Origin: Solirubrobacterales bacterium 70-9
GTDB taxonomy: Bacteria > Pseudomonadota > Alphaproteobacteria > Acetobacterales > Acetobacteraceae
Assembly: GCA_903970625.1 (NCBI GenBank)
Contig: CAJCJG010000159.1
Span: forward strand, 1-64,000
DNA: 64,000 bases
Direction of reading: 5' to 3'
Within the stretch, counting starts at the first letter, position 1. Every line of letters starts with the position of its first letter. This document shows, piece by piece, positions 5,402 through 57,999 of this stretch. Position numbers and translations under genes: made by a program. The notes below the pieces were generated by a model. It saw nothing but the letters and a program-made list of their open reading frames with translations, was not told the origin of the DNA and ran no database searches.

Positions 5402-6970
5402 ATGGGACTCACGCGGCGAGATTTTACCCTGGGCGCGGGGGCAGCAATCGGCCTGCCGTGGCTGGCGGCACCCCGCGCGGCGCACGCCGCGACCGCCAGC
5501 GCCGTTTTGGGCATCGACGCCGATCCGCCGACGCTGAACCCGGCCATGTCCACCGACTACGGCACCGGCGATGTCGGTGCGAAAATTTTCGAGGGCCTGA
5601 TCTGGCTGGATCGCGACTATCAGCCGAAGCCGTCGCTGGCGACCGCCTGGACCGTCTCGCCTGACGCGAAGGTTTATACGTTCACGCTGCGCGAGGGCGT
5701 GACATGGCACGACGGCAAGCCGTTCGGCGCCGACGATGTGGTGTTCACTTTTTCCGACATTCTGGCGAAATATCATCCGCGCACATCGGCAGTACTGAAG
5801 ACCATCGGGGCCGTCGTGACCTCGCCAGATCCGAAAACCGTCGTGGTGACGTTGCAGAAGGGTTACGCACCGTTTCTGGTTCAAATGTCGGTGTTCGACG
5901 CGCCGATTCTTCCCAAGCATCTGTATTCGGGTGCCGACATCCCGGCCAACCCAGCCAATCAGGCGCCGGTCGGCACCGGACCGTTCCGGTTCGGCGGCTG
6001 GACGCGCGGGGCGACGATCCAGACCACGCGCAATCCGGCTTGGTGGGGCGGCGCCGCCGGCCTCGACGAAATCATTTTTCAAATCGTGCCGCAGCCTGCC
6101 AATCGCGCCTCCGGCCTGGAGACCGGCGAGATCGACGCCGTGGTGGACTTCTATCTGCCGAAGCCGGACGAGCCGCGTTTGATGAAGAACCCCGCGCTGC
6201 AATTCCGCAAGGGCATCAACATTCCCGCCGTCTATTTTCTCGCGTTCAACACCGCCCGGCCCGTTTTTGCCGGCAAGGAGGCGCGGCAGGCGGTGGCGTG
6301 CGCCATCGACCGGCCGCGCCTTGTGCAACAGGTGATGAACGGGCTGGCGCGCCCCGGCTACGGCGCATTCGGCGACGGGTTCAAATGGCTGCTCGATCCC
6401 GACGACAATTATGCCAAACGCTATCCGCTCGATCCGGCACACGCGCGCGACCTGCTGGCAAAAACGCCGGCCGCCGGGCAGACGGTGTCGCTGGTGTACG
6501 ACGCGGCCCGGCCGCAACTGCGCGCGACGGCCCAGATCGTTCGCGACAATCTGCATCAGATCGGGCTGGAAGTTTCGCTGTTGCCGCTAGAGCGGGCCGT
6601 TGGGATGGAGAAGGTTTTCACCCAGCACGATTTCGACCTGACGCTGCAATCGTATTTTTCTGCCGGCGATCCGGCCATCGGCTACACGCGCCTCTATCAA
6701 ACGCAGACCGGCAACAAGGCGCTGACCAACGCCACCGGCTATTCCAATCCGGACGTGGATCGGCTGCTCGCCGAAGCATCGGTGGCGCCGAACCGCGATG
6801 ACCGCGCAAGAATCTATCGGGAGTTGCAGGCGATTTTGAACGATGACCTGCCAAGCCTGATTCTGTTCGACGAGGAGACGGTGGATTTTGCCTCCAAACG
6901 GCTGAGCGGCTTGTGGCCCGCCATCGACGCGCGCGACCAGTGGGGCGGCGTGAAGATGGCGGCGGATTAG
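5402..6970 (+). CDS. ABC transporter substrate-binding protein, peptide/nickel (SBP_bac_5) family
   Basis: Periplasmic solute receptor of 522 residues for the importer encoded just downstream. The N-terminus carries a twin-arginine export motif, TRRDFTLGAG, then a hydrophobic stretch ending in an AHA-A cleavage site. The mature part has the family 5 hallmarks PPTLNPAMSTDYGTG near the N-terminus and VTWHDGKPFGADDVVFTF around residue 100. Family members bind di- or oligopeptides, opines, nickel or glycosides, so the ligand is open. It is the first gene of a five-gene operon with very short or negative spacing. Confidence 0.9.
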   Translation: MGLTRRDFTLGAGAAIGLPWLAAPRAAHAATASAVLGIDADPPTLNPAMSTDYGTGDVGAKIFEGLIWLDRDYQPKPSLATAWTVSPDAKVYTFTLREGVTWHDGKPFGADDVVFTFSDILAKYHPRTSAVLKTIGAVVTSPDPKTVVVTLQKGYAPFLVQMSVFDAPILPKHLYSGADIPANPANQAPVGTGPFRFGGWTRGATIQTTRNPAWWGGAAGLDEIIFQIVPQPANRASGLETGEIDAVVDFYLPKPDEPRLMKNPALQFRKGINIPAVYFLAFNTARPVFAGKEARQAVACAIDRPRLVQQVMNGLARPGYGAFGDGFKWLLDPDDNYAKRYPLDPAHARDLLAKTPAAGQTVSLVYDAARPQLRATAQIVRDNLHQIGLEVSLLPLERAVGMEKVFTQHDFDLTLQSYFSAGDPAIGYTRLYQTQTGNKALTNATGYSNPDVDRLLAEASVAPNRDDRARIYRELQAILNDDLPSLILFDEETVDFASKRLSGLWPAIDARDQWGGVKMAAD

Positions 6971-6971
6971 G

Positions 6972-7946
6972 GTGCGGGCCGCCGCCCTCGGCTGGTTCGT
7001 GCTGCGCCGGCTACTGCACGCGGTCCCGCTGCTGTTCTGCGTCGTGGTGCTGAACTACGCGCTGATCGCGAGCACACCGGGCGATCCCGTGACCGTGCTG
7101 GTCGGCGACTTCCCGGCGCCCGCTGAGTACAAGACGCAGGTACGGCACGATTACGGGCTGGACCAGCCGATCCCGGTGCAGGTCGCGCGCTATGTCACGC
7201 GCGTGCTGCACGGCGATCTCGGCTATTCGTTTGCCAATCGCCAGCCCGTGCTGTCGCTGATTGCGGGACGGTTGGCGGCGACGTTGGAACTGACGGCCAC
7301 GGCGCTGGGGTTTTCCAGCCTGCTCGGCATCGCACTCGGCGTTTTGTCCGCGCGCAGGCCGGACGGCGTTTTGGACCGCGCGGTGCGCGGCCTTGCCACC
7401 GCAGGCTACGCGCTGCCGGAATTCTGGGTGGGCCAAATGCTGATTCTGGTGTTCGCGATCTGGCTCGGCTGGCTGCCGTCGCAGGGCGCGCACGCGATAC
7501 GCGGCGTGGCCCCGGGCTGGGCCGGCATCGCCGACGGCGTGCGGCATCTGATCCTGCCGGCGCTGGCACTGTCGTTGCGCTATCTCGCGTTGATCGCCCG
7601 CATCACCCGCGGCGCGATGCTCGAAGTGCTCGGCGCCGACTTCATCCTTGCCGCGCGGGCACGCGGGGCCAGCGAGCGGGCCGTGCTGATCGGCCATGCG
7701 CTGCGCAATGCGGCCGCACCCGTCATCACCGTGATCGGCTTCAATCTCGGTTTCATCCTGGCCGGATCGGCGCTGATCGAGACCGTGTTCGGCTGGCCAG
7801 GCATCGGCCGCCTGCTGTTCGACTCCATCGGCAGCCGCGACTACCCAACGATGATGGGAATTTTGCTCGTCGTCTCGGCGACGGTCGTGGCGGCGAATCT
7901 GGCGACCGACATTCTGCACCGGATGCTGGACCCGAGAGTCGGATGA
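6972..7946 (+). CDS. ABC transporter permease, DppB/OppB type
   Basis: Inner-membrane permease of 324 residues with about six hydrophobic helices. The first helix (RRLLHAVPLLFCVVVLNYAL) and the loop with TPGDPV are typical of DppB/OppB proteins. The EAA-type loop that contacts the ATPase is present near residues 220-240 (ARARGASERAVLIGHALRNA). Translation starts at a GTG one base after the stop of the binding-protein gene, and the stop overlaps the next permease start by 4 bp (ATGA), so the operon is translationally coupled. Confidence 0.9.
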   Translation: MRAAALGWFVLRRLLHAVPLLFCVVVLNYALIASTPGDPVTVLVGDFPAPAEYKTQVRHDYGLDQPIPVQVARYVTRVLHGDLGYSFANRQPVLSLIAGRLAATLELTATALGFSSLLGIALGVLSARRPDGVLDRAVRGLATAGYALPEFWVGQMLILVFAIWLGWLPSQGAHAIRGVAPGWAGIADGVRHLILPALALSLRYLALIARITRGAMLEVLGADFILAARARGASERAVLIGHALRNAAAPVITVIGFNLGFILAGSALIETVFGWPGIGRLLFDSIGSRDYPTMMGILLVVSATVVAANLATDILHRMLDPRVG

Positions 7947-8746
7947 TTCCGATTTCCGTATTTATCGCGGGCGGTTGGCTCACGCTGACTGTTCTGGCGG
8001 CCGTGTTTGCGCCGCTGGTCGCGATGGACCCGTATGCGGGCGGCCCGGACGCGCTGCTGCCGCCGCTATCGCCGGCGCACTGGCTGGGCACTGACGACCT
8101 TGGCCGCGACATCTTTGCGGAAACCTTGTTCGGCACGCGGGTTTCGCTGACCGTGGGCGTGACGACCGCGATTGCCGGCGCGGTGATCGGGGTCGCGGTG
8201 GGGGCTGCGGCCGGGTGGCTGGGCGGAGTTGCCGATGCGGCGCTGATGCGCCTGACCGAACTGTTCCAAACGCTGCCGCGCTTCGTGCTGGCGCTGGTGA
8301 CGATCGCCCTGTTCGGGCCTGGGCTGGCGAAAGTGATCGTCGTGATTGGCATTTTGGCATGGCCGCAAACCGCGCGCGTGGTGCGCGCATCGGTCGCGAC
8401 GCTGCGTTCGGCGCCGTTCGTCGAGGCCGCGCGCGTCGGCGGCATGCCCGGCATCGCGCTGGTGCTATCTGAAATTCTGCCCAACGTCGCGGCCCCGGTG
8501 ATCGTGCTGGCGGCGCTGGATGTGGCGACGGCCATTCTGCTCGAAGCCGGCCTCGGCTTCTTCGGGCTGGGCGATCCGAATCTCGTCTCCTGGGGCGCGA
8601 TGCTGAACGAGGCGCAGCAATATCTGCGCACCGCGTGGTGGATGGCGGTGTTCCCCGGCATTGCCATCGCCGCGACGGTGCTCGCGTTCAACCGCCTCGG
8701 CGACGCGCTGAATGCGGCGACCGATCCGCGCGGGCGGGGCCGGTGA
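7943..8746 (+). CDS. ABC transporter permease, DppC/OppC type
   Basis: Second inner-membrane permease of the importer, 267 residues. After the first helix comes the family signature HWLGTDDLGRDIFAETLFGT, then five more helices and the EAA-like loop VEAARVGGMPGIALVLSEIL. The C-terminal region (GLGFFGLGDPNLVSWG) is characteristic of DppC/OppC. It lacks the longer cytoplasmic N-terminal extension of many OppC proteins. It overlaps the preceding gene by 4 bp and the following ATPase by 4 bp. Confidence 0.9.
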   Translation: MIPISVFIAGGWLTLTVLAAVFAPLVAMDPYAGGPDALLPPLSPAHWLGTDDLGRDIFAETLFGTRVSLTVGVTTAIAGAVIGVAVGAAAGWLGGVADAALMRLTELFQTLPRFVLALVTIALFGPGLAKVIVVIGILAWPQTARVVRASVATLRSAPFVEAARVGGMPGIALVLSEILPNVAAPVIVLAALDVATAILLEAGLGFFGLGDPNLVSWGAMLNEAQQYLRTAWWMAVFPGIAIAATVLAFNRLGDALNAATDPRGRGR

Positions 8747-9708
8747 GCCCGGTGCTCGACATTCGCGGCCTGCGCGTGGCGCTGCGCGACGGGACGCGGC
8801 TGGTGGACGACGTCTCGCTGCACGTCGATGCCGGCGAGATCGTCGGCCTCGTCGGCGAATCCGGCTCCGGCAAGTCGATGACGGCGTACGCGGCGCTCGG
8901 CCTGTTTCCGACGCCGCACGCGCGCATTGCCGGCGGGGAAATTCGACTGGATGGAACCGATTTGGCGAGCCTGACGCCGGCCGCGTGGCGGGCGGTGCGC
9001 GGGGCACGGATCGGGATGGTGTTCCAGGACCCCTCCAGCTTCCTCGACCCGCTGCTGCCGGTCGGCCGCCAAATCGCCGAGGCGTTTTATGCACACGGGC
9101 AGGGTCGGGAAGCGCCCGCGCGCGTGTCGGCTCTGCTGGAACAAGTGGAACTACCCGCCAGTGCCGCCGCCCGCTACCCGCACGAATTGTCCGGCGGCCA
9201 AAAACAGCGCGTGCTGATCGCGGCGGCCCTCGCGATGCGGCCCGCGCTGTTGATCGCCGACGAACCGACGACGGCGCTTGACGTGTCCGTGCAGGCGGGC
9301 ATTCTTGATTTGCTGAAAAGATTGCGCGCGGATCTTGGATTGGCGGTGCTGCTGATCACCCACGATCTCGGCGTGATCGCCCAAACTTGTAGCCGCGTTT
9401 ACGTGATGTATGCTGGCCAGATCGTCGAATCCGCGCCGACCGCTGCGCTGTTCCGCGCGCCGCGCCACCCCTATACGCTAGGGCTGCTCGCCAGCCTGCT
9501 CAGCCCGGCCGTGCGGCAGGAGGCGCTGTTCTCCATCCCCGGCACGGTGCCGCCCGCGCGCGCGATGCCGGACGGCTGCCGCTTCCATCCACGCTGCCCG
9601 CTCTCGCTGCCGGACCCGTGCGCCGCGCGCCCGCCCCCTTTGCGCGCGCACGGGCCGGGCGAAGATCGCTGCTGGCGCGCCGACGAAGCCGCGACGGCCT
9701 GGGCATGA
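8743..9708 (+). CDS. ABC transporter ATP-binding protein, DppD/OppD type
   Basis: ATPase subunit of 321 residues. The Walker A motif is GESGSGKS, the ABC signature is LSGGQKQR, and the Walker B region is LLIADEPTTALDVS followed by an H-loop in LLITHDLG. The C-terminal oligopeptide/dipeptide-transporter extension has a cysteine-containing tail (CRFHPRCPLSLPDPC, plus a later CW) that in relatives can bind an Fe-S cluster. The GTG at 8743 overlaps the permease stop by 4 bp; the longer upstream reading lies wholly inside the permease gene. It pairs with the next ATPase to form a heterodimeric motor. Confidence 0.9.
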   Translation: MSPVLDIRGLRVALRDGTRLVDDVSLHVDAGEIVGLVGESGSGKSMTAYAALGLFPTPHARIAGGEIRLDGTDLASLTPAAWRAVRGARIGMVFQDPSSFLDPLLPVGRQIAEAFYAHGQGREAPARVSALLEQVELPASAAARYPHELSGGQKQRVLIAAALAMRPALLIADEPTTALDVSVQAGILDLLKRLRADLGLAVLLITHDLGVIAQTCSRVYVMYAGQIVESAPTAALFRAPRHPYTLGLLASLLSPAVRQEALFSIPGTVPPARAMPDGCRFHPRCPLSLPDPCAARPPPLRAHGPGEDRCWRADEAATAWA

Positions 9709-46102: not shown

Positions 46103-47059
46103 ATGCGCAACTTCGACCAACTCAACGAGCGGGAAATTCTTGCCCTGGCCATCGGCAACGAGGAGGAGGACGGCCGTATCTACGCCGACTTCGCCGAAGG
46201 CCTGCGCGCCGACTTCCCCGCCACCGCCGCCGTGTTCTCCGAAATGGCCGTCGAGGAAGGTGACCATCGCCGCCGGCTGCTGGACATGTACCGGGAAAAG
46301 TTCGGCGAACATATCCCGCTGATCCGCCGTCAGGACGTACGCGGCTTCGTCCAGCACAAGCCGGTGTGGCTCGCCGGGCCGCTGACGATCGAGGCCACGC
46401 GCGGCCAGGCGCAGGTGATGGAAGCCGAGACTCAACGCTTCTACCAGATGGCCGCCGCCCGCAGCACCGATGCCTCGATCCGCAAACTGCTCGGCGACCT
46501 CGCCGAGATCGAGGCGCAGCACGAACACACCGCCGACCGCCTGATCGCCGAAAACGTGCCCAAAGGCGTCGCGGCGCAGGAGGCGGAGGCGGAGCGGCGC
46601 CTGTTTGTCCTGCGCATCATCCAGCCCGGCCTCGCCGGCCTGATGGACGGGTCGGTCTCCACCCTCGCGCCTGTGTTCGCCGCCGCCTTCGCCACGGGCC
46701 GGTCGTGGGACGCCTTCCTCGTGGGCCTTGCCGCCACCATCGGCGCGGGCATTTCGATGGGCTTCGCCGAAGCCTTGTCCGACAACGGCAGCCTGACCGG
46801 GCGCGGCGCCCCGTGGATCAGGGGTGGCATTTGCGGCCTGATGACCACGCTCGGCGGCATCTTCCACACGCTGCCGTTCCTGATCCCGAATTTCGCCACC
46901 GCCACGGTCGCGGCAGTCGTCGTCGTGATTTTGGAATTGGCCATTATCAGTTGGATCCGCTGGCGCTACATGGACACGCCCCCCATATCTGCCGCCATGC
47001 AAGTCGGCTTCGGCGGCGCCCTGGTGTTCGCCACCGGCATCCTGATCGGCAACAGCTAG
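46103..47059 (+). CDS. mbfA: MbfA-like membrane ferritin / iron exporter (rubrerythrin-VIT1)
   Basis: Protein of 318 residues joining an N-terminal rubrerythrin/ferritin-like domain (1-155) to a C-terminal VIT1/CCC1-type membrane domain. Di-iron ligands are seen in [37 protein letters not shown] and [12 protein letters not shown]. The membrane part begins [20 protein letters not shown] and has about five helices. MbfA in Agrobacterium and Bradyrhizobium exports iron and protects against peroxide; Irr regulates it there. No clear Irr box was found in the 92-bp upstream gap. Confidence 0.93.
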
Positions 47060-47069
47060 GAGAGTTCAC

Positions 47070-47351
47070 ATGCGCGCCACCTGGAACGGCCAGACCCTCG
47101 CCGAGAGCGACGACATCGTGACGGTTGAGGGCAACGCCTACTTCCCCGAGGACGCCCTGCGCAAAGACCTGATCGTGCCCAGCGACCACACCAGCGTCTG
47201 CGGCTGGAAGGGCACGGCGAACTATTATTCCCTGCGCGTGGACGGAGAAAGCAACGCCAACGCCGTGTGGTACTACGCCGACCCGAAACCGGCGGCATCC
47301 CAGATCAAGGGCCGCGTGGCGTTCTGGAAGGGCGTGAAGGTAGAGGGCTAA
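47070..47351 (+). CDS. DUF427 domain protein
   Basis: Compact cytoplasmic protein of 93 residues covering a single DUF427 domain: ATWNGQTLAESDDIVTVEGN at the start, VCGWKGTANYYSL in the middle and YYADPKPAASQIKGRVAFW at the end. DUF427 proteins form a small beta-barrel of unknown function. AGGAG lies 11 nt before the ATG. It is 10 bp after mbfA, so the two are likely co-transcribed. Confidence 0.88.
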   Translation: MRATWNGQTLAESDDIVTVEGNAYFPEDALRKDLIVPSDHTSVCGWKGTANYYSLRVDGESNANAVWYYADPKPAASQIKGRVAFWKGVKVEG

Positions 47352-47358
47352 AGCCCGC

Positions 47359-49443
47359 TCAAAAATGCGCGGTCGCGCTGACGAAGAAGCGCCGGTCGAG
47401 CGGCGGCCCGGCCGCCTGTAGCAGACGTGACGTGTTGAATTGTTGCGCCGTCAGCGCAAGGGTCACGTTGTCGGTCAACCGATAGCTGATATGCGCGGTG
47501 AGGGTCAGGAAGTTCCGTATCTCGATCGGCACGAGATCGGCGGCGTTGCCATTGAACTGGAAGTCGCGATAGCTGGACTGCCATCGGCCCATCAGGTCGA
47601 TCTCGACGCGCTCCCAGGTGTCACCGATGCCGGCGGTCACGACGTGACGCGGGACGGCATGCGCGTAGTCGATGGAGGTGGAGGTGGCGTTTTGCACCGT
47701 GCCGTCCGTGGTCGTGACGAAGGCGTAGCTGGCGTTCCAGCGCAACCCCGACGCCGAATGCCCCTTGAGGCCGATTTCGGCGCCGACGGCGTCGCTGCCG
47801 CCGACATTGCCGGCCAGGAAGACCGGAACACCCAAGGACCCGACGAAGGGTCGTGTGGCGAACGGCTCGCTGATGATGTCCCGCGTCCGCTCGGCGAACA
47901 ATGCGGTGCGCACTGTCGAGCCGATCGACGGCAGCGACCGGTCGTAGTCCATCTCCACATTGTCCACGGTCGAGGGATGCAGGTTCGGGTTGCCGGCAAC
48001 GACGACCGGGCCGACCTTGCCCTCGGAAAATTGCAGGCCGAAATCCAACAGGCTCGGCACCTGCACGCCGCGCGCGACCAGCAGGCGCAGCGTGTCGAGG
48101 TCGGTGACGTTGAACACCAGACCGGAATTATAGCTCGGCACGGCGAAGTTCTCGTGGGCATAGTCGGCGTTGGTGATGCCCGTGCCGGCCGCCAGTATGC
48201 CGGAATACCGCATATTCAGGTCATCGACCCGCACCGCGTTGGTCCACGACAGGCGTGGGGTGATCGCCCAGTCCCACATGAGGCTCGCGGCATAGACGTC
48301 GTACCCGATCGTCCCCTGGACGTATCCGGGTGCGGTTTGCGAGTTGTTGCGGTATTCCAGACCCACCCGAACGGTATGATCGCTGCCGAACTTGACCACA
48401 TCGCTGGCCCGCACGACGTAAACGTCCTGGTTCGACCAGGGTGCCACGTCGGTCAACGTCGTCTGCCCGATCGAGTCGCGTTCCTCGTTGCGGTAGGCAT
48501 CGACGCTGATCAGCCCGATTGCGGTATCCGCGTTCACCCCGGCCCGGACGGAGTTCGTGCGGGTGAACGTCGTGTCGAACGTATCCGCGAAGCCTTTCTC
48601 GGCATAACGGCTGTCGCCCATGCTGGCTTCGACGAATGTCTCGACTCCGGCTGCCACGCGGGCGGTCGCGGCGACGCTGACATTGCCCACGTCCGGAGAC
48701 AGGTCGCGGCTGCCGGCATCGGCTAGAGCAAGGTCGCCGGACCCGAAGTCGGTCGCGTGGAACCCACCGGCCGACATCCGCACGCCGACATCCGCGCCGA
48801 TCCGCCCGGTGCCGACGACCGAGCCGGCGAAATAGTTCTGCGTCCCGCCCCGCAAGGTCGCGGCGTTCACCTTGTCGTGCAGCGGGTCGTAGGTGATGAT
48901 GTTGATGACGCCGCCCACGGCGTTGAAGCCATACAGCGCCGAGTTCGGCCCCTTGATGACCTCGATCTGGCGGATCTCGTCGAGCTGCACCGGGATCGTC
49001 GGCCAACTGACATGGCCGTAATTGTCGGAATAGACCTGCCGCCCGTTCACCAGCACAAGCAGACGCGGATTGTACGACTGGTTGTAGCCTCGAATGCCGA
49101 CCTCGGCGTCCGCGATGCCGTAGCTGCGGACCTCGACGCCGGTGACGAATTGCAGCGCGTCTGGGATGCTGGTGGCACCGGATCGCCGGATGTCGTCCTG
49201 CGTGATGATCTCCATGTTGGCCGGCGCATCGCTTGCGCGCTGCGGCTTGCCGGTCGCCGAACTCGTGACCGGCTCGCCGAAAAGCTGCTCCATTCTCTGA
49301 TAGTCGATCACCTGCGAGTAGGCCCGCGAGCGGGGGAGCGCAATCAGGCTGGCCGCCGCGAGCACGACGGTCACGGCGCGCGGCGCGGGCCTGCTCATCG
49401 ACGGCAGCGACCGGCGGCGCGCGCTTCGTCTGGCGGGTTTCAT
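47359..49443 (-). CDS. TonB-dependent outer-membrane receptor
   Basis: Outer-membrane transporter or sensor of 694 residues. After a signal peptide, MEQLFGEPVTSSATGKPQRA forms the N-terminal TonB-box region, followed by the plug (MEIITQDDIRRSGATSIPDA and EVIKGPNSALYGFNAVGGVI). About 22 beta-strands and a terminal phenylalanine (FFVSATAHF) close the barrel. The LFGEPVT-type N-terminus is that of receptors genetically linked to YfiR-like proteins. It is the last gene of an operon with the YfiR-like and GGDEF/EAL genes, with only 4 bp to the former. The ligand is unknown. Confidence 0.92.
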   Translation of the reverse strand: MKPARRSARRRSLPSMSRPAPRAVTVVLAAASLIALPRSRAYSQVIDYQRMEQLFGEPVTSSATGKPQRASDAPANMEIITQDDIRRSGATSIPDALQFVTGVEVRSYGIADAEVGIRGYNQSYNPRLLVLVNGRQVYSDNYGHVSWPTIPVQLDEIRQIEVIKGPNSALYGFNAVGGVINIITYDPLHDKVNAATLRGGTQNYFAGSVVGTGRIGADVGVRMSAGGFHATDFGSGDLALADAGSRDLSPDVGNVSVAATARVAAGVETFVEASMGDSRYAEKGFADTFDTTFTRTNSVRAGVNADTAIGLISVDAYRNEERDSIGQTTLTDVAPWSNQDVYVVRASDVVKFGSDHTVRVGLEYRNNSQTAPGYVQGTIGYDVYAASLMWDWAITPRLSWTNAVRVDDLNMRYSGILAAGTGITNADYAHENFAVPSYNSGLVFNVTDLDTLRLLVARGVQVPSLLDFGLQFSEGKVGPVVVAGNPNLHPSTVDNVEMDYDRSLPSIGSTVRTALFAERTRDIISEPFATRPFVGSLGVPVFLAGNVGGSDAVGAEIGLKGHSASGLRWNASYAFVTTTDGTVQNATSTSIDYAHAVPRHVVTAGIGDTWERVEIDLMGRWQSSYRDFQFNGNAADLVPIEIRNFLTLTAHISYRLTDNVTLALTAQQFNTSRLLQAAGPPLDRRFFVSATAHF

Positions 49444-49447
49444 TGGC

Positions 49448-49969
49448 TCAGAACTCCGTCACCATCATGCGAAACACAGAAACGAAGGTGATATCGCTGG
49501 CCGCTGCCGCAGCGCGGTTGACGTAGATCCGGACTTTCGGATCGACTTGGATTCCCAGGACGCAATTGCCGCTTTGCACTTCGCTCACATTCAGGGTGAT
49601 GCAGGGCAGCCGCCGCTGGGCCGTCGCTCGGGCGATCTTCATGCCTCGATCTTCGACGCCGTCGGGCAGAAACAGGACATCGACGGGCGCGATCAGGGCC
49701 GCGTCGATATTCACGGCCACCGGCTCGAACACCAGGTTTCCCGCCTTCAACCTGGCCCCGAGCGATGTGACGACGGCATCGGCGTTCGCCATCGACCCAT
49801 CTTCGGCGGGATCGTAAACGACCCCGAGCCGGACATTGCCGCTGAGCGGCCTTTCCATGAATCCCAGCGCGCGGGCGGCGATTTGCAAATCGACCGGTGT
49901 GACCTCGGCGTGCGCCGGCGCAGGGATCAGGGCAAGATGCGCGAGCGCGAGCGGCGCCCAGACCCTCAC
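49448..49969 (-). CDS. YfiR-family periplasmic protein (DUF4154)
   Basis: Small periplasmic protein of 173 residues with a signal peptide (WAPLALAHLALIPAPAHA). The C-terminal part (RLPCITLNVSEVQSGNCVLG, then RIYVNRAAAAASDI) is typical of YfiR. YfiR binds a membrane diguanylate cyclase (YfiN) and holds it inactive until released. Two cysteines are available for a disulfide. The GTG at 49969 sits 2 bp after the GGDEF/EAL stop with no clear ribosome site, implying translational coupling to that gene. Confidence 0.82.
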   Translation of the reverse strand: MRVWAPLALAHLALIPAPAHAEVTPVDLQIAARALGFMERPLSGNVRLGVVYDPAEDGSMANADAVVTSLGARLKAGNLVFEPVAVNIDAALIAPVDVLFLPDGVEDRGMKIARATAQRRLPCITLNVSEVQSGNCVLGIQVDPKVRIYVNRAAAAASDITFVSVFRMMVTEF

Positions 49970-49971
49970 TG

Positions 49972-52900
49972 TCAGGAGACCGGAAGTTTTCTGGGCGGGC
50001 CGCCGGGCGGCGTCGGCGCGGCGGGGCCAGAGGTGCCAGCAGGGCGCCCGACGGGCAGTGCGCGGGCCGGGGTGATCGAACCCTCCCGAAGCAAATCCGA
50101 CGCCCGCGCCGCGTTGACGGCGGCGCTGAAATGGAAGCCTTGCCCCTTTGTCGTGTCGCCCATGGCCACGAGCAGCGCGCGCTCGTCCGCCGTCTCGATT
50201 CCCTCGGCAATCACCTCGATGTTCAGTGTGCGCGCCAGCGCGAGAATGGCGCGGATGGTCCGCGCGTGTTCCGGGTCGTCGGTCGCCGTCTTGATGAACG
50301 ACTGCGCGATCTTGACGTGGTTGATGTGGTAACGCCGCAGATAATCGAATGACGAGAATTCCATCCCGAAATCGTCGATCGCGATGCGCACACCGAGCTT
50401 GCGGAGGTCCACCAACACCTCGTTCCTGGCCCACGACACCTGGGCCAGGACCGATTCGGTGATGTCGAGTTCCAGATCGCCCGGGGCCAATCCCCACTTC
50501 GCGAGGATTTCCGTGACCATGGCGATGAAGCTCTGCCCATTGCGGAGTTCGAGCATCGAGACGTTCACGGCCAGCACGCCCGGCGCGATGTGGCGATCCC
50601 GCCATCGCCGCATCTGGGCGCATGCCTGATCGAGAACCCAGCGCCCGAGCGGCAGGATGACCCCCGTCTTCTCCGCGATCCCGATGAACACCGATGGCAG
50701 GATCAGACCCCGCGTCGGGTGATGCCACCGCGCCAGCGCCTCCATGCCGACGATCTTGCCGGAGGCGAGGTTCACCTGCGGCTGATAGTAGAGTTCAAGC
50801 TCGTTACGGTCGATTGCCTCCCGCAGATCGGAGGTCAACGTCACGCGTTGGCGGACTTCTTCGTCGAGATCTTTCGTGTGGAAGCGATATTGGTCGCGCC
50901 CCTCCTCCTTGGCCCGATACAGCGCCAAATCCGCCTGCACGAGCAAGGCATCGGCTTCGACCGTCGCCGTGCCCAGCGGCGCGATGCCGATGCTCGCCGT
51001 GACGTGGGCGGTGTTTCCTTTCAGCGCATACGGCAAATCCACCGCCAGCCGGAGCTTTTCGGCCAAAGTCCCGGCGGAGGCGGGGTCGAACACGTCAGTT
51101 TGCAGGATCGCGAATTCGTCCCCGCCAAAGCGGGCGACGAGGTCCGTGTCGCGAACGCCGCTCAGCAGCCGCGCGGCCACCGTCTTGAGCAGCAGGTCGC
51201 CCATGGGGTGGCCAAGGGTGTCGTTCACATCCTTGAAATGGTCGAGGTCGAGGTAGATCACGGCAAAGGCCGGCCCGCCGCGTCGGCTGGCGTTGAACGC
51301 GAGATGGAGACGCTCGGTGAAGGTCGCCCGATTGGCCAGCCCGGTCAGCGGATCGGTTCGCGCCAGTCGCAGGATCTGTTCTTCGGCCGCCTTTCGCTCG
51401 GCGACGTCGATCATGATGCCTTCGACTTCGATGAGCCGTCCGTTCTGGTCGCGGACAGGATTGTAGCGGGCCTCCACCCACCGGCGCGACCCGTCGCCGT
51501 TCAGCATGCGAAATTCGACGGATGCGTTCGACGTGCCTCTCTCCAACACGCCGGTCAGGGTGAACAAGACCCTCGGCAGGTCGATCGCATCGATCAACCG
51601 GTGCTGCCAGTCGGGCGAACCGACGAGCTCCGCCGGAGAGTGGCCGAATTTCGCGATGTTCTGCGAAATGTAGATCAGTGGCAACGACGGCTCGCCGCGC
51701 AGCCGGAACAGGATCGTCGGGCTGTTCTGAACGATCATGTTCGCGTCGGCGAGTTCCTTGGTGCGCCCGGCGCGCGCCGTGGCGCTGCCGACCAGTTCGG
51801 CCAGGGTCGCGAGCGTGTCGGATTCCGCCGATGTCCAGGCCCGCCGGACCGGCGACGAATCGACGAAGGTGAGGCAGCCGGACAACTGGCCACCAATGCG
51901 GATCGGCACCAACAGCACCGAACTGACCCGCGCCGACCGGAACAAGTCTCGGTTGGGTCCGGACAATTCATCGGCCAGGACCGAGCCCTGTTCCCCGATG
52001 GCGAGCAATCGCGCGGCCGCCGGGAACCGCTCGGTCAGATCGAGGTTCGCCAGTTCGGCCGTCTCCGCCAGCCGGCCAATGCCGGATGCGCACCATTCCT
52101 GCTGCAAGGACAACATGACGTGGCCGGTCGGGCCGAGGCCGATCGCGCCGAATAGGACGCGCCCAACCGACGTTGTCTCTCCGATCAATTGCAGCACTGC
52201 GGCGATGGCGTCGTGCAGGTCGCCGTCGCCCAGCAGCGCGGCGGCACTTTTTGCCACTGCGGTCAGCAACAGATCGCGCTGCCGCAACGCCGCCTCGGCA
52301 GCGACCCTTTCGGATAATTGGTTCTCCAACAAAACGTTGCTTTGCCGCAGTTCCCCCGTCCGCTCCGCAACCGTCGCCTCCAGCTCGGCGCGATAGAGGT
52401 TCATCTGTCCGGCGCGTGCCTCCGCCGTCGCGGCCTCCCGCTCCGCCGCCCCGCGCTGGGCCAAAGCACGCGACAGCCGCTCCGCCATCAGGAGAAATCC
52501 GGCACTGACCACAAGCAAGACGACGGCGCGCTGCCATACCGCGCGCCGCCAGTCCACGAGCGCGTCCGCGTCCGCCAGCGCGGCGTGGGCCGTCAGATGG
52601 TCCCTGGTCGCGGCAGCCACGATCAGCCGCCCAGCGCCAGCCGGGGGTGGCTGCCCCGTGGAGATCTTCCCGTCGGTCTCGATCCAGATCCAGGCGGTCG
52701 GATATTGCAGCAGCACGCGCCAAAGGGCGGCCGCGCGATCCGGATCGCCCGAGCCGCCGGGCGCCTCCGCAGCCCGATCCGCCAGGGCGCTCAGTTCAAC
52801 CAGGGTCGAGACGGAATTGTCGAGTTGCGACTGCGCACGTTCCAGTGCCGTGGCGCGTTCACCGACCGTGAACGTGGCCACCGTGGCCAAAATGGTCATC

Positions 52901-53070
52901 AGCGCGGCCAGCGCCGGCAGGAACACGACAAGCCGCTGGTAGCGGTTTTCGTTGCGCGTGGGCACCGGTGGGAACGGCACCGGCGGGCCGGTCCCGTTGC
53001 GACTTAGGCTTGATCGTTCGGCGTCGCTCACGTCGCGGGAACGATCGGCCGGAGGGCGGGCGCACGCCAA
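49972..53070 (-). CDS. GGDEF/EAL protein with periplasmic, GAF and PAS domains
   Basis: c-di-GMP enzyme of 1032 residues. Two helices near 46-67 and 178-196 bracket a periplasmic domain of about 110 residues; a coiled coil, GAF (about 285-440), PAS/PAC (445-570), GGDEF (575-740) and EAL (750-1000) follow. The GGDEF motif RFGGDEF is intact near 646. The EAL domain has MEALARW, AIDDFGMEF in place of the usual DDFGTGYSS, AEGIET, and an altered end (QGFHFSAA). Synthesis is therefore likely; hydrolysis is less sure. It is followed by a YfiR-like gene and a TonB receptor. Confidence 0.92.
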   Translation of the reverse strand: MACARPPADRSRDVSDAERSSLSRNGTGPPVPFPPVPTRNENRYQRLVVFLPALAALMTILATVATFTVGERATALERAQSQLDNSVSTLVELSALADRAAEAPGGSGDPDRAAALWRVLLQYPTAWIWIETDGKISTGQPPPAGAGRLIVAAATRDHLTAHAALADADALVDWRRAVWQRAVVLLVVSAGFLLMAERLSRALAQRGAAEREAATAEARAGQMNLYRAELEATVAERTGELRQSNVLLENQLSERVAAEAALRQRDLLLTAVAKSAAALLGDGDLHDAIAAVLQLIGETTSVGRVLFGAIGLGPTGHVMLSLQQEWCASGIGRLAETAELANLDLTERFPAAARLLAIGEQGSVLADELSGPNRDLFRSARVSSVLLVPIRIGGQLSGCLTFVDSSPVRRAWTSAESDTLATLAELVGSATARAGRTKELADANMIVQNSPTILFRLRGEPSLPLIYISQNIAKFGHSPAELVGSPDWQHRLIDAIDLPRVLFTLTGVLERGTSNASVEFRMLNGDGSRRWVEARYNPVRDQNGRLIEVEGIMIDVAERKAAEEQILRLARTDPLTGLANRATFTERLHLAFNASRRGGPAFAVIYLDLDHFKDVNDTLGHPMGDLLLKTVAARLLSGVRDTDLVARFGGDEFAILQTDVFDPASAGTLAEKLRLAVDLPYALKGNTAHVTASIGIAPLGTATVEADALLVQADLALYRAKEEGRDQYRFHTKDLDEEVRQRVTLTSDLREAIDRNELELYYQPQVNLASGKIVGMEALARWHHPTRGLILPSVFIGIAEKTGVILPLGRWVLDQACAQMRRWRDRHIAPGVLAVNVSMLELRNGQSFIAMVTEILAKWGLAPGDLELDITESVLAQVSWARNEVLVDLRKLGVRIAIDDFGMEFSSFDYLRRYHINHVKIAQSFIKTATDDPEHARTIRAILALARTLNIEVIAEGIETADERALLVAMGDTTKGQGFHFSAAVNAARASDLLREGSITPARALPVGRPAGTSGPAAPTPPGGPPRKLPVS

Positions 53071-53589: not shown

Positions 53590-56500
53590 GTGACATTTAG
53601 GGGATACCTCGACAGTGTGCGCCGCGGCTGGGTCGAGGGATGGGCATGGGACAGTGATCGGCCAAACGAACCCCTGACGATCCTGGTGTCGCTCGACGGC
53701 ATCGAAGTCGCGCGCGGGCCCGCCAGCATCCAACGCCCGGATTTGGCAGATGCGGGTCTCGGCGCCGGCTATTGCGCCTTTTCGATTCGCTGGGACGATT
53801 CGGAGACATCTACCGGCAACCATAAATTGACGGCGCGTATCGAAGGCAGGGACGTGGACCTGGAAGGCAGCCCCGCCGCCTACAATGTCGCCGGCGGGAT
53901 CAATCTGCTCGAAGGCGCGCCGCATGGCCTCGACGAACAAGGGCGCCCCGACCTCGTTCGGTTGACGGAGGACGAGTTTGCGCGTGTCGCGTTCGAGGTT
54001 GTCGGCGGCGCGATCCCAACCCTGCGCATTTGGCTGCTGCACCCGGCCGCCGTCCCCACGCAGACCAAGGGAGTCGAGAGCGCGCCTTCTCCTCCGGACG
54101 TGCCGCTGCTCCGCTACACGATGTCCGCGCCGAATGCGGCCGACGTCGGGCCTATGGTTGTCGGCCTCGATATTCGGGCCGCGTCGGCGGCGCTTCCCAT
54201 CACGTTGTGCGTCCGAGGTCTGGCAGGCGGCGTCGTGGTATTCGAGCAGCGCTTCACTGCGTCGGCAAACAACGCATGGGACACGCTCGCGTTCGAGATC
54301 GCCCCCCCTGGCGCCGATGCGGCACCGGATACCTGGCTCTACGAATTGGCGACAACCTGCACGACGGTCATGGCCGGCGTGGAACTGCGCAACCTCGTGC
54401 TCGGCTCCCCCAAACCGGCCCTTGGCGTCGCGAGCGTCGGGACACCCAAGCCGGTCTCCTACTACGAACCGGAGCGCGGCGCGTTCGCCGAGAGCAACCT
54501 GCTGAGTACCTGCGACATGCTGGCCCCCGGGCCGGACGGCAAGCTGGCGCTCGCCGGAAATTGGACGACGATCCGGGGCCGCGATGGCGAGTTGGTGTTG
54601 TCGCCCTCGCCGCATCCGTGGCTGCCGACGGGGGACAGGCGGCACCAGCCGCGCAGGCTCGCCCATTTCAAAATCGAGTCCAATATCCACTACTTCCGGT
54701 TCGTCCATCAGCTTCGCGGCGCCACAGTGGCACGCAGCAAGCGCCTGGGCGCGGAGTTGGTGTTCGGCGCGGATGCGGCGGCCGGTACGAGTGCGGGCCT
54801 GATGCTGGCGACATTCTTGCGCGTGCTGAATGCGAACGGGGTCGAGGTCATCCTGCCGCTCATACCGAAGCAGGAAGTGACGGACACGCTGGTCGCGAGG
54901 TCGGCGTCGCAGGTCATCACCGACGAACGCGCGACCCTGCTGCGCGAGTGCAAGTCTGTCCAGTATGTTATCGAAATAACCGGCACCGGCAATCTGCTCC
55001 TCGGCCTGTGCTGGCTCGGCGACGCGGATCTGCCCGCCGCGAAGGCCGAACGCGTGTCGGCCGTCGCGGACCTGCGGGGCCGTGAATGGCACTACCAGCG
55101 TTTCGTCGAAACGACTGAAACGCTGTTCCTCGCCGCCGGCCCACGGGCCGATATCATCGCCTGCGTCCGCAGTCCCGGCGGCCTGTCGGTGGACCAACGG
55201 AACCAGCTTGTCGCGTTTACGGTGCGCAGTTTGGTCAAGCACACCAGTATGATCCTCGTCATCCTGGATGCTCCGGCCGACAGCGGGCCGGCCGTGGTTG
55301 CCGCCGCGAAGCAAGCACTTGGCAACGCCGTGTCGCTGCGCGAGATGGCCCAGGTCACGATCAAGTTCGCGCCTGACGAAGCTGCGGCAGCACGCTTGTT
55401 CGCCGCGTTGACGGACACAATCTCGCCGACCTCGCTCGTGGTCGCGTTTCCGGCCGGCTCCGCAGTCCGCAGCGACTTTTCGCAGGCCCTCGGCAGCGTG
55501 CCGACTGGGGCAGAAGCGCCCGACTTCATCGTCTTCGACCACGATTTCCTCGCCGGCACGGCCCGGCGGAGCGCGCCCGTCCTGAAACCGGGGCTTAGCA
55601 GCCATCTGCTGCTGGAAAAGGACTATATCGGACCGGGTGTGGCCTTTCGGGCGACCCCGCTGCAACGCGCGCTCGGCGACGGGGCCATCTCCCCCCTCAG
55701 CCCGTTCGGCACGCGCGACGTCGTGCTACGCCTGTTCGATGTCGGAATGGTTGGCGCCAAGCTGGATTGTGTGCTGGTGCATTTTCCACTCGGGATCGAG
55801 GGCGAATCGCGGGCCGACGAACGCACTTTCATCGAATCCGTTCTGGCGCGGCGGGGAACGCCTGCCACACTTTCCAGGTGGGGAAGCGAATACACTGTCA
55901 AATACGAGACTGACTCACGACCGTTGGTCTCCATCATTGTACTGTTCCGCGACAAGGTGGATTTTCTGCGGCGCTGCGTGGAAAGCATTGTGACCCGCAG
56001 CGAATACACCCACTACGAAATAATTCTTGTCAACAACCAGAGTAGCGAGCCGTCCACGGCGGTCTATCTGGAGACCCTCCAAAACGATAGCCGGATAAAG
56101 ATAGTCGATTTTGACCGGTCGTTTAACTATTCGGCCGCTAATAATTTCGGTGTGCGCCACGCGGTGGGCGAGTACTTACTATTCCTGAATAACGATACGG
56201 AGGTTCTCAGCGGGGATTGGCTTGACGTGATGATGGGCCTCGCGGCGCAGAAAGACACCGGGTTTGTCGGCGCCCGGTTGCATCTGGAAACCGGGGTCGT
56301 ACAGCACGCCGGCATCGTCGTTGGTCTCTGTGGCATGGCCGGCCATGTCTTTGCCGGCGAGCACGACGTGGCGATGCCGCGAGCCTTCCTGCTGCACACG
56401 CGGGATGTCTCTGCTGTCACCGGGGCTGCTATGTGCATCAAGGCTGGCAGATACCTCGACCTCGGTGGCTTCGACGAGCGCTTCATTCTCACCGGCAATG

Positions 56501-57999
56501 ACGTCGAGATTTGCCTTCGCGCCCGCCGGCGTGGCTGGCGGAACGTTTATGCCGGCTCCGTGCAACTGTTTCATTTCGAGAAAACGTCGCGCAAGGAGAT
56601 TCCGACCTACTTGCGCGACATCCAGTTGTCGCTGGAGGCATACGAGCCCGACTTGTCGCTCGGCGATCCCTATTGGAACGCCATGCTCAGCCGGACACGG
56701 CCCGACTACCTGCCGCGCGCGCCGGTGGAACCCACACCCGGCGACATTCGCAAAGCGGCGGTCGAGCGCCGCACCTGGGCCATGAAGGCGCGCAAACTCG
56801 GCCCGGATGCGAACTACATTGCATTCAATGACATAGATCGAGCGAGCATCGAGGCAAACCGTGCGTTGAACCGCGACTACGCGCGTGGCGGCGCCGGCCG
56901 AATTCGGCGCGCCGCCTATTTCGTGCCGAATCTGACCCACATCTATCGCGGCGGGCTGTTCACGTGCTTCCGTCTCGCAGCGGCGCTCTACCGCAACGAG
57001 GGCGTGGAGCCTTTGGTCGTGATCTGCGGAGAGCGTTCTCCGAATTTGGACCTTCTGGCGCGGCAGTTCGAGGAGGCGTTTCCCGGTATCCCGTTCCAGT
57101 TCCACCATTTCAATCCGCTACGGGATTCGCCGGTCAGCATACCGCGGGCCGAGATCGCAGTGGCGACGCTGTGGACAACGGCTTTCGTCGTCGCGCGCTA
57201 CCCCGCGAAGGGCAAGTTCTATCTGATCCAGGACTACGAGCCCCTGTTCGAGTCGACCGGCGCCGGGTACGGACTGATCGAGGCGACCTACCGTTTTGGC
57301 TTCTTCCATATCTGTAATTCGCCGGGCGTCGCCGCCGCCGTCGCGCCGTATTCCGACGCGCCGACGCTGTCGTTCGAACCTGCGGTGGACCGCGACGTTT
57401 TTTATCCGAGCGCCACGTTGCCGCCGCCCGGTGCGCCGGTGCGTATCGTGTTCTATGGCCGTCCCAACAGTCCCAGAAACCTGTTCGGGATGGGGATGCA
57501 CGCGCTGCTGGAAGTGAAATCCATTCTCCGGGATAGTGTCGAAATCATCTCGGTCGGTGCAGAGTTCGATCCCGCCGATCACGGCGCCGCCGGCAAGATC
57601 CTCAACGTGGGTCTGCTACCGAGCATCGCGAGCGTCGCAGCACTCTACCGCAGCAGCGACATCGGTCTGGTGTTCATGCAGTCCAAGCATCCGTCGTATC
57701 AGCCGTTGGAATACATGGCCAGCGGCTGCGCGACCGTAACCAATGTGAACGAATCCAACACGTGGCTGCTGAAGCATCGGCAGAATTGCATTCTGTCGCA
57801 AATCACCCTCAGCGACGTGGTCGAATCGCTGGTCAATCTCGTCGAGGACGTGGCCTTGCGGACCACCATTCGCGAACGCGGATTGCAAACCGTCGCGGGC
57901 ACCAACTGGGCGCCGGTCGAAGCAGCGGTAACTCAGTTTATGATGCGGCCCGTCGCGCTTCCTGTCGCACGCAGCCGCGTGCGAAAGGATGCCCAGTGA
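53590..57999 (+). CDS. Giant multidomain glycosyltransferase (GT2 plus WsaF-like GT)
   Basis: Protein of 1469 residues. Residues 1-110 form a beta-sandwich-like module (YLDSVRRGWVEGWAWDSDRP). A poorly recognised region of about 650 residues follows, possibly carbohydrate-binding with a degenerate GT-like fold. A GT2 domain at about 777-1000 has PLVSIIVLFRDKVDFLRRC, the metal motif LNNDTE and the acceptor block GNDVEICLRARRRGW. A C-terminal WsaF/rhamnosyltransferase-like domain (about 1110-1460) starts FVPNLTHIYRGGLFTCFRL. It probably assembles a surface polysaccharide with two linkages from one chain. The GTG start at 53590 has GGAG 10 nt upstream. It overlaps the next gene by 4 bp. Confidence 0.85.
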   Translation: MTFRGYLDSVRRGWVEGWAWDSDRPNEPLTILVSLDGIEVARGPASIQRPDLADAGLGAGYCAFSIRWDDSETSTGNHKLTARIEGRDVDLEGSPAAYNVAGGINLLEGAPHGLDEQGRPDLVRLTEDEFARVAFEVVGGAIPTLRIWLLHPAAVPTQTKGVESAPSPPDVPLLRYTMSAPNAADVGPMVVGLDIRAASAALPITLCVRGLAGGVVVFEQRFTASANNAWDTLAFEIAPPGADAAPDTWLYELATTCTTVMAGVELRNLVLGSPKPALGVASVGTPKPVSYYEPERGAFAESNLLSTCDMLAPGPDGKLALAGNWTTIRGRDGELVLSPSPHPWLPTGDRRHQPRRLAHFKIESNIHYFRFVHQLRGATVARSKRLGAELVFGADAAAGTSAGLMLATFLRVLNANGVEVILPLIPKQEVTDTLVARSASQVITDERATLLRECKSVQYVIEITGTGNLLLGLCWLGDADLPAAKAERVSAVADLRGREWHYQRFVETTETLFLAAGPRADIIACVRSPGGLSVDQRNQLVAFTVRSLVKHTSMILVILDAPADSGPAVVAAAKQALGNAVSLREMAQVTIKFAPDEAAAARLFAALTDTISPTSLVVAFPAGSAVRSDFSQALGSVPTGAEAPDFIVFDHDFLAGTARRSAPVLKPGLSSHLLLEKDYIGPGVAFRATPLQRALGDGAISPLSPFGTRDVVLRLFDVGMVGAKLDCVLVHFPLGIEGESRADERTFIESVLARRGTPATLSRWGSEYTVKYETDSRPLVSIIVLFRDKVDFLRRCVESIVTRSEYTHYEIILVNNQSSEPSTAVYLETLQNDSRIKIVDFDRSFNYSAANNFGVRHAVGEYLLFLNNDTEVLSGDWLDVMMGLAAQKDTGFVGARLHLETGVVQHAGIVVGLCGMAGHVFAGEHDVAMPRAFLLHTRDVSAVTGAAMCIKAGRYLDLGGFDERFILTGNDVEICLRARRRGWRNVYAGSVQLFHFEKTSRKEIPTYLRDIQLSLEAYEPDLSLGDPYWNAMLSRTRPDYLPRAPVEPTPGDIRKAAVERRTWAMKARKLGPDANYIAFNDIDRASIEANRALNRDYARGGAGRIRRAAYFVPNLTHIYRGGLFTCFRLAAALYRNEGVEPLVVICGERSPNLDLLARQFEEAFPGIPFQFHHFNPLRDSPVSIPRAEIAVATLWTTAFVVARYPAKGKFYLIQDYEPLFESTGAGYGLIEATYRFGFFHICNSPGVAAAVAPYSDAPTLSFEPAVDRDVFYPSATLPPPGAPVRIVFYGRPNSPRNLFGMGMHALLEVKSILRDSVEIISVGAEFDPADHGAAGKILNVGLLPSIASVAALYRSSDIGLVFMQSKHPSYQPLEYMASGCATVTNVNESNTWLLKHRQNCILSQITLSDVVESLVNLVEDVALRTTIRERGLQTVAGTNWAPVEAAVTQFMMRPVALPVARSRVRKDAQ

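Follow-up and report, generated by a model that had tools for sequence, protein, structure and literature searches.

Repression by the periplasmic protein YfiR is relieved in Pseudomonas by YfiB (PMC3375315, PMC4655355); a sequence-only reading of the DNA analysed here had YfiB helping YfiR to restrain YfiN, which is the reverse. YfiR was described as modular by Malone et al. (2012), with kinase, GGDEF-EAL, HPT and MCP outputs and with YfiB often lost; these authors assumed a conserved YfiN PAS core, and the term 'TonB' is absent from their paper (PMC3375315). Most distant YfiR systems have been known since 2012 to be without YfiB, and hence to have an unexplained input. In Yersinia, HmsE is an OmpA-like lipoprotein, like YfiB, and not a TonB receptor. 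The HmsCDE system resembles the operon reported here in that a periplasmic protein like YfiR/HmsC regulates (in our case putatively) a c-di-GMP enzyme (PMC5550408).

TonB receptors that report to the inner membrane are known from cell-surface signalling (FecA/FpvA with an anti-sigma factor and an ECF sigma factor). The receptor family described below differs in that it lacks the STN domain and in that the relay would be a soluble YfiR-fold protein. No FecR/FecI-like gene was found among the neighbours examined. The best NCBIfam matches of our YfiR-receptor pair are TOL_0243 (NF053591, YfiR-like) and TOL_0244 (NF053590, TonB receptor) of Thalassolituus, whose consecutive locus numbers suggest that they are adjacent, like our pair. 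The scores are far below the NCBIfam cut-offs (17 of 125 bits for TOL_0243 and 156 of 645 for TOL_0244), and the pair is therefore placed in a separate branch. TOL_0244 has been compared with OmpS, which reportedly senses alkanes and sets off chemotaxis (PMC6304351).

An operon for a c-di-GMP enzyme, a YfiR-like protein and a TonB receptor

The window, a stretch of 64,000 nucleotides from an Acetobacteraceae genome, contains a minus-strand operon in which a gene for a GGDEF/EAL enzyme is followed by genes for a periplasmic protein with the YfiR fold and for a TonB receptor of LFGEPVT type. All three coupled genes proposed from the sequence are present, between 47359 and 53070. Only 2 nt separate the enzyme stop from the YfiR-like start, and 4 nt separate the YfiR-like stop from the receptor gene. 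The features are as follows:

49972..53070, minus strand: GGDEF/EAL c-di-GMP enzyme with two transmembrane helices, a periplasmic stretch, GAF and PAS (domain search; homologue at locus L108)
52540..52863, minus strand: periplasmic domain of the enzyme (residues ~70-177), between predicted TM1 (~47-65) and TM2 (~177-195)
50890..51360, minus strand: GGDEF domain; the GGDEF motif and the RxxD upstream of it read as intact (PF00990, E=1.6e-42)
50122..50829, minus strand: EAL domain; the catalytic motifs, EAL and DDFG among them, read as intact (domain search and alignment)
49448..49969, minus strand: YfiR-like periplasmic protein with signal peptide, Cys123 and Cys136 (domain search, AlphaFold2, Foldseek)
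47359..49443, minus strand: TonB-dependent receptor of LFGEPVT type, without N-terminal STN (domain search, alignment)
49240..49293, minus strand: pre-plug motif MEQLFGEPVTSSATGKPQ of the receptor, at the TonB-box position and conserved in the family (alignment)
48907..49236, minus strand: receptor plug domain (PF07715, E=3e-23)

The operon ends with the receptor, because the DUF427 gene located 3' of it (47070-47345, plus strand) runs in the opposite direction and converges on the receptor gene. Close to the receptor, also on the opposite strand, is a gene for a fusion of rubrerythrin and a VIT1-like membrane domain (46103-47059, plus strand), which is possibly iron-related. Divergent from the operon is a gene (53590-57999, plus strand) for a protein of 1469 aa in which two regions are of glycosyltransferase type (GT2 and WsaF-like), and further glycosyltransferase-like open frames occur 3' of it. 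A plasmid search returned one record, from Roseomonas haemaphysalidis, with GGDEF-EAL, YfiR and receptor genes.

Common to the operon and YfiBNR (TpbB/AwsXRO) are a YfiR-fold periplasmic protein, an operon shared with a membrane c-di-GMP enzyme and a GGDEF site that is intact by reading. The window operon differs in having a TonB receptor for YfiB, and a GGDEF/EAL enzyme with GAF and PAS and no CHASE8. We consider it rather probable that the operon encodes a signalling relay from the outer to the inner membrane, in which the receptor would do the job that YfiB does in YfiBNR. The TonB receptor would bind an external ligand, and its state would alter the amount or form of free YfiR-like protein in the periplasm. 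The YfiR-like protein would act on the sensor domain of the inner-membrane protein encoded at the locus, whichever type this is. We infer that the proteins would touch, that the receptor would control YfiR and that enzyme activity would change; by analogy, the default sign of the action on the enzyme would be repression.

The YfiR-like protein (GTG start, 173 aa) is secreted. Its match to DUF4154 is sub-threshold (E 0.002, 18.5-18.8 bits, cut-off 24.9), and a match at E<=0.1 is found in 51 of its 83 relatives, the best at 4e-8. An AlphaFold2 model built from 80 relatives (pLDDT 91.6) was compared with known structures by Foldseek and matched numerous entries for P. aeruginosa YfiR (among them 4zhu, 4yn9 and 5eb1; YfiR alone and in the YfiB complex) with probability 1.00 and TM up to 0.64/0.74. 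The protein thus has the YfiR fold, and these structures, together with the DUF4154 matches among relatives, support the family assignment made in the sequence-only reading. A PHROGs search with the YfiR-like protein gave no match.

Beside YfiR, Foldseek ranked tryptophan-binding ABC proteins and a small substrate-binding protein of R. marinus among its top matches. These favour the main rival explanation, in which the receptor imports a small ligand that the YfiR-like protein, a one-domain solute-binding protein, binds and presents to the inner-membrane sensor. The receptor would then be a transporter and need not touch YfiR. In LuxP-LuxQ and TorT-TorS, a loaded binding protein presents its ligand to an inner-membrane sensor in such a manner. 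The YfiR fold is half a solute-binding protein, and the YfiR-like profile also weakly finds substrate-binding proteins by sequence (E 0.11). Against ligand presentation is the position of the best-conserved residues (F162, F166, M168 and the preceding P144-x-V-x-I strand), which fall in the C-terminal region that is the protein-binding surface in YfiR (PMC4655355). P. aeruginosa YfiR itself acts by protein-protein sequestration (PMC4655355), and an ABC importer was not recognised among the neighbours examined. On balance we regard ligand presentation as rather unlikely, although the sensor domains considered below bring some further evidence for it.

Within the YfiR-like family, C136 is paired with C123 in 31 sequences and with C130 in 43, never both (74 of 80 sequences), a pattern suggestive of a conserved disulfide in which one of the two cysteines has shifted. 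In PAO1 YfiR, the disulfide near the binding surface is Cys145-Cys152. The conserved cysteine pair is in keeping with a second alternative, that the genes are merely co-regulated neighbours: the receptor would be a nutrient transporter, and the YfiR-like protein would control the enzyme only via its own redox-sensitive disulfide. A redox response is indeed documented for YfiR and its relative HmsC (PMC3375315, PMC5550408). The evidence that weighs on the other side comes from the distribution of the genes, given in the next section.

The window receptor gives both plug and barrel matches, and members of its family have a plug (13 of 13) and mostly a barrel (11 of 13). The STN signalling domain was found in 0 of the 13, and we therefore rejected identification as a Fec-type TonB transducer. 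The pre-plug motif is a candidate contact site and overlaps the TonB-box position. A related motif scores at least 8 bits in 37 of 44 YfiR-linked receptors of the phylum vs 0 of 40 control TonB receptors, with a small profile that was trained on 17 of the 44 and poorly detects the LFGEPVT variant. The nearest relative of the window receptor (L037:5548-7416, on the same contig as G014:C52) has no output gene nearby. Its frame stops early (622 aa) and similarity runs on to the C-terminus, so this gene may be frameshifted.

Conservation of the receptor-YfiR pair and its outputs

Loci were ascertained in three ways: by YfiR within the family, by the receptor over 84,980 species, and by an NCBIfam YfiR model across Pseudomonadota. 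The species-wide profile search used the receptor alignment, as the YfiR alignment was too divergent for use. Among 149 other genomes of the family, 12 encode a YfiR homologue. Most of these loci also have genes for the receptor and for a GGDEF/EAL protein, with the order and orientation of the genes permuted.

The sequence-only reading had proposed co-occurrence analysis as a check, and a conserved neighbourhood was found: YfiR is adjacent in 74 of 79 receptor-ascertained loci vs 0 of 40 control TonB receptors (other receptors from genomes of the same family). A gene for an MCP, histidine kinase or GGDEF/EAL protein, confirmed by Pfam, lies within 1 kb in 51 of the 79, vs 1 of the 40 controls (Fisher p about 1e-11, computed on 50/79). 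Output genes have a density of 0.40/kb within 1 kb of the pair vs 0.01-0.07/kb at 1-8 kb. Chance adjacency of receptor, YfiR and output is rejected by the 40 control receptors, and the linkage of the pair to three classes of inner-membrane output is non-random.

By nearest gene, the outputs are 20 MCP, 18 c-di-GMP and 12 histidine kinase, with the c-di-GMP assignment ambiguous at L038, L039 and L041, where a histidine kinase is on the opposite side. The earlier view of c-di-GMP as the dedicated output thus does not hold; it is one of three, and chemoreceptors are as common. The receptor tree implies at least 9 changes between MCP, histidine kinase and c-di-GMP outputs (16 when 'none' is counted), and output types are more clustered than in shuffles. 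In view of these changes, the receptor-YfiR pair behaves as an input cassette that is re-attached to different outputs.

About one third of the receptor-YfiR pairs are without an output gene nearby, which counts against the proposed relay. This is especially so in Caulobacter (L085, L087, L091, L096, L098, L100, L106 and L112), where the output, if any, must be encoded elsewhere in the genome. An apparent YfiR-receptor gene fusion at L096 was discarded, as the frame crosses an N in the sequence.

A histidine kinase or GGDEF gene is beside YfiR in 55 of 60 Pseudomonadota loci. The cluster includes a TonB receptor in 43 of the 60, a proportion that is not a frequency among all YfiR genes, as the NCBIfam model was perhaps built from receptor-linked members. 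Genes for YfiB-like OmpA proteins were identified only at receptor-less loci (L173, L176 and L177). By a motif scan that is not fully sensitive (it missed L176, which Pfam detected), none was found at the 43 receptor-bearing Pseudomonadota loci, in the window or at the 79 receptor-ascertained loci. Genomics therefore supports the idea that a TonB receptor takes the place of YfiB, at most sampled YfiR loci.

Single-gene fusions of DUF4154 and a histidine kinase were identified at L165, L170, L171, L172 and L174, and a TonB receptor adjoins three of these five. The fusions can be read as a Rosetta-stone link between YfiR, inner-membrane output and receptor. Fusions beside a receptor argue against control through the disulfide alone, as do the maintenance of the receptor-YfiR pair without nearby output, in permuted orders and across output swaps, and the finding of no YfiB-like gene where the receptor is present. 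We consider that explanation improbable.

Sensor domains of the partner proteins

Sensor domains encoded beside YfiR recur across output classes. At the Pseudomonadota loci, CHASE8, the periplasmic domain of YfiN, is present in 47 of 55 partners, including kinases, cyclases and GGDEF-EAL proteins; five of the eight without it are the fusions described above. At LFGEPVT loci, CHASE8 was found in 0 of 50 partners. Chemoreceptors at these loci are headed by a helical periplasmic domain with the motif SMLEIDFxSAVSFLxPF (A8 family). A profile of this domain trained on chemoreceptors alone also matches GGDEF/EAL or GGDEF proteins at L042, L045 and L051 (E 1e-41 to 1e-45) and the hybrid kinase at L058 (9e-48), and leaves 126 other GGDEF or histidine kinase proteins from the loci unmatched. 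Examples of the domain are:

L075:12160-12756
L042:8404-9006
L058:7267-7848

In Pfam, the domain gives at best a sub-threshold match to 4HB_MCP, with no model at cut-off. Independent hits are linked to a receptor-YfiR pair in 7 of 12 strong cases and in 0 of 8 weak generic ones. YfiR of the family is present in 7 of 9 genomes with strong hits and in 0 of 8 with weak hits only. The domain is not exclusive to receptor-YfiR loci.

Many partners have helical-bundle sensors like 4HB_MCP, which are typical of ligand or binding-protein input, and the sensor domain of one partner kinase weakly resembles that of TorS. Both observations favour presentation of a ligand by the YfiR-like protein. A further group of partners consists of 7-TM proteins without a large periplasmic domain, a few of which match MHYT weakly. 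These count against the relay from receptor to YfiR to sensor domain, as do MHYT, PAS and GAF domains, which could sense signals of their own.

The window enzyme has two predicted transmembrane helices flanking a periplasmic part of ~110 residues, followed by GAF, PAS_3, GGDEF and EAL. Homologues align with it only from residue ~43, so that the annotated TTG probably lies upstream of the true start, which is probably near 52,940-53,020. The model of the periplasmic domain has helices and a four-stranded sheet and is PAS-like (AlphaFold2 pLDDT 80.7, from 3 sequences only), and a search of PDB structures with it gave no confident match. For residues 43-300, a search at E 1e-8 gave no relative among 298 further genomes of the family or among 397 further genomes sampled from the phylum.

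The periplasmic domain is neither CHASE8 nor the recurrent sensor domain of the LFGEPVT branch. CHASE8 was absent from the enzyme in the Pfam search and profile comparison was also empty, and identification of the enzyme as YfiN was rejected. YfiN is believed to bind YfiR by way of CHASE8. Any docking of YfiR to the window enzyme would thus not be that of YfiBNR.

Enzymes of the window type were identified at two gammaproteobacterial loci, L108 and L111 (52% and 44% identity), in the same gene order of enzyme, YfiR and receptor. Docking of YfiR to the window enzyme is suggested by this synteny at three loci only, which counts against the relay. In the L111 enzyme (6545-9469), as read from the alignment, the EAL catalytic residues are lost and GGDEF is intact, a hint that synthesis may be the retained output.

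Implications of a receptor as the proposed substitute for YfiB

The circuit had been described from the sequence as one that is not well described. Modular YfiR outputs without YfiB were on record by 2012. Searches that combined YfiR or DUF4154 with TonB brought up no account of the circuit in the literature covered, which is incomplete. Within that literature, neither the role of the receptor as the missing partner nor a distinct LFGEPVT branch that has a periplasmic domain of its own appears to have been described.

We give about even chances to a broader proposal, in which most YfiR systems without YfiB have a TonB receptor as their missing partner in the outer membrane. This would be a general mode of signalling, distinct from ECF-sigma signalling and feeding into chemotaxis, two-component systems and c-di-GMP. 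LFGEPVT would be a separate lineage with its own SMLEIDF sensor domain, outside the Pfam cut-off. As receptor-YfiR genes occur in culturable bacteria (Azospirillum, Nitrospirillum and Aureimonas), the idea is directly testable.

If the TonB receptor is the input, a ligand recognised at the surface would be wired directly to decisions on swimming, gene expression and biofilm formation, and would signal without uptake into the cytoplasm. This would also provide a mechanism for reports such as that on OmpS, a TonB receptor said to trigger chemotaxis towards alkanes.
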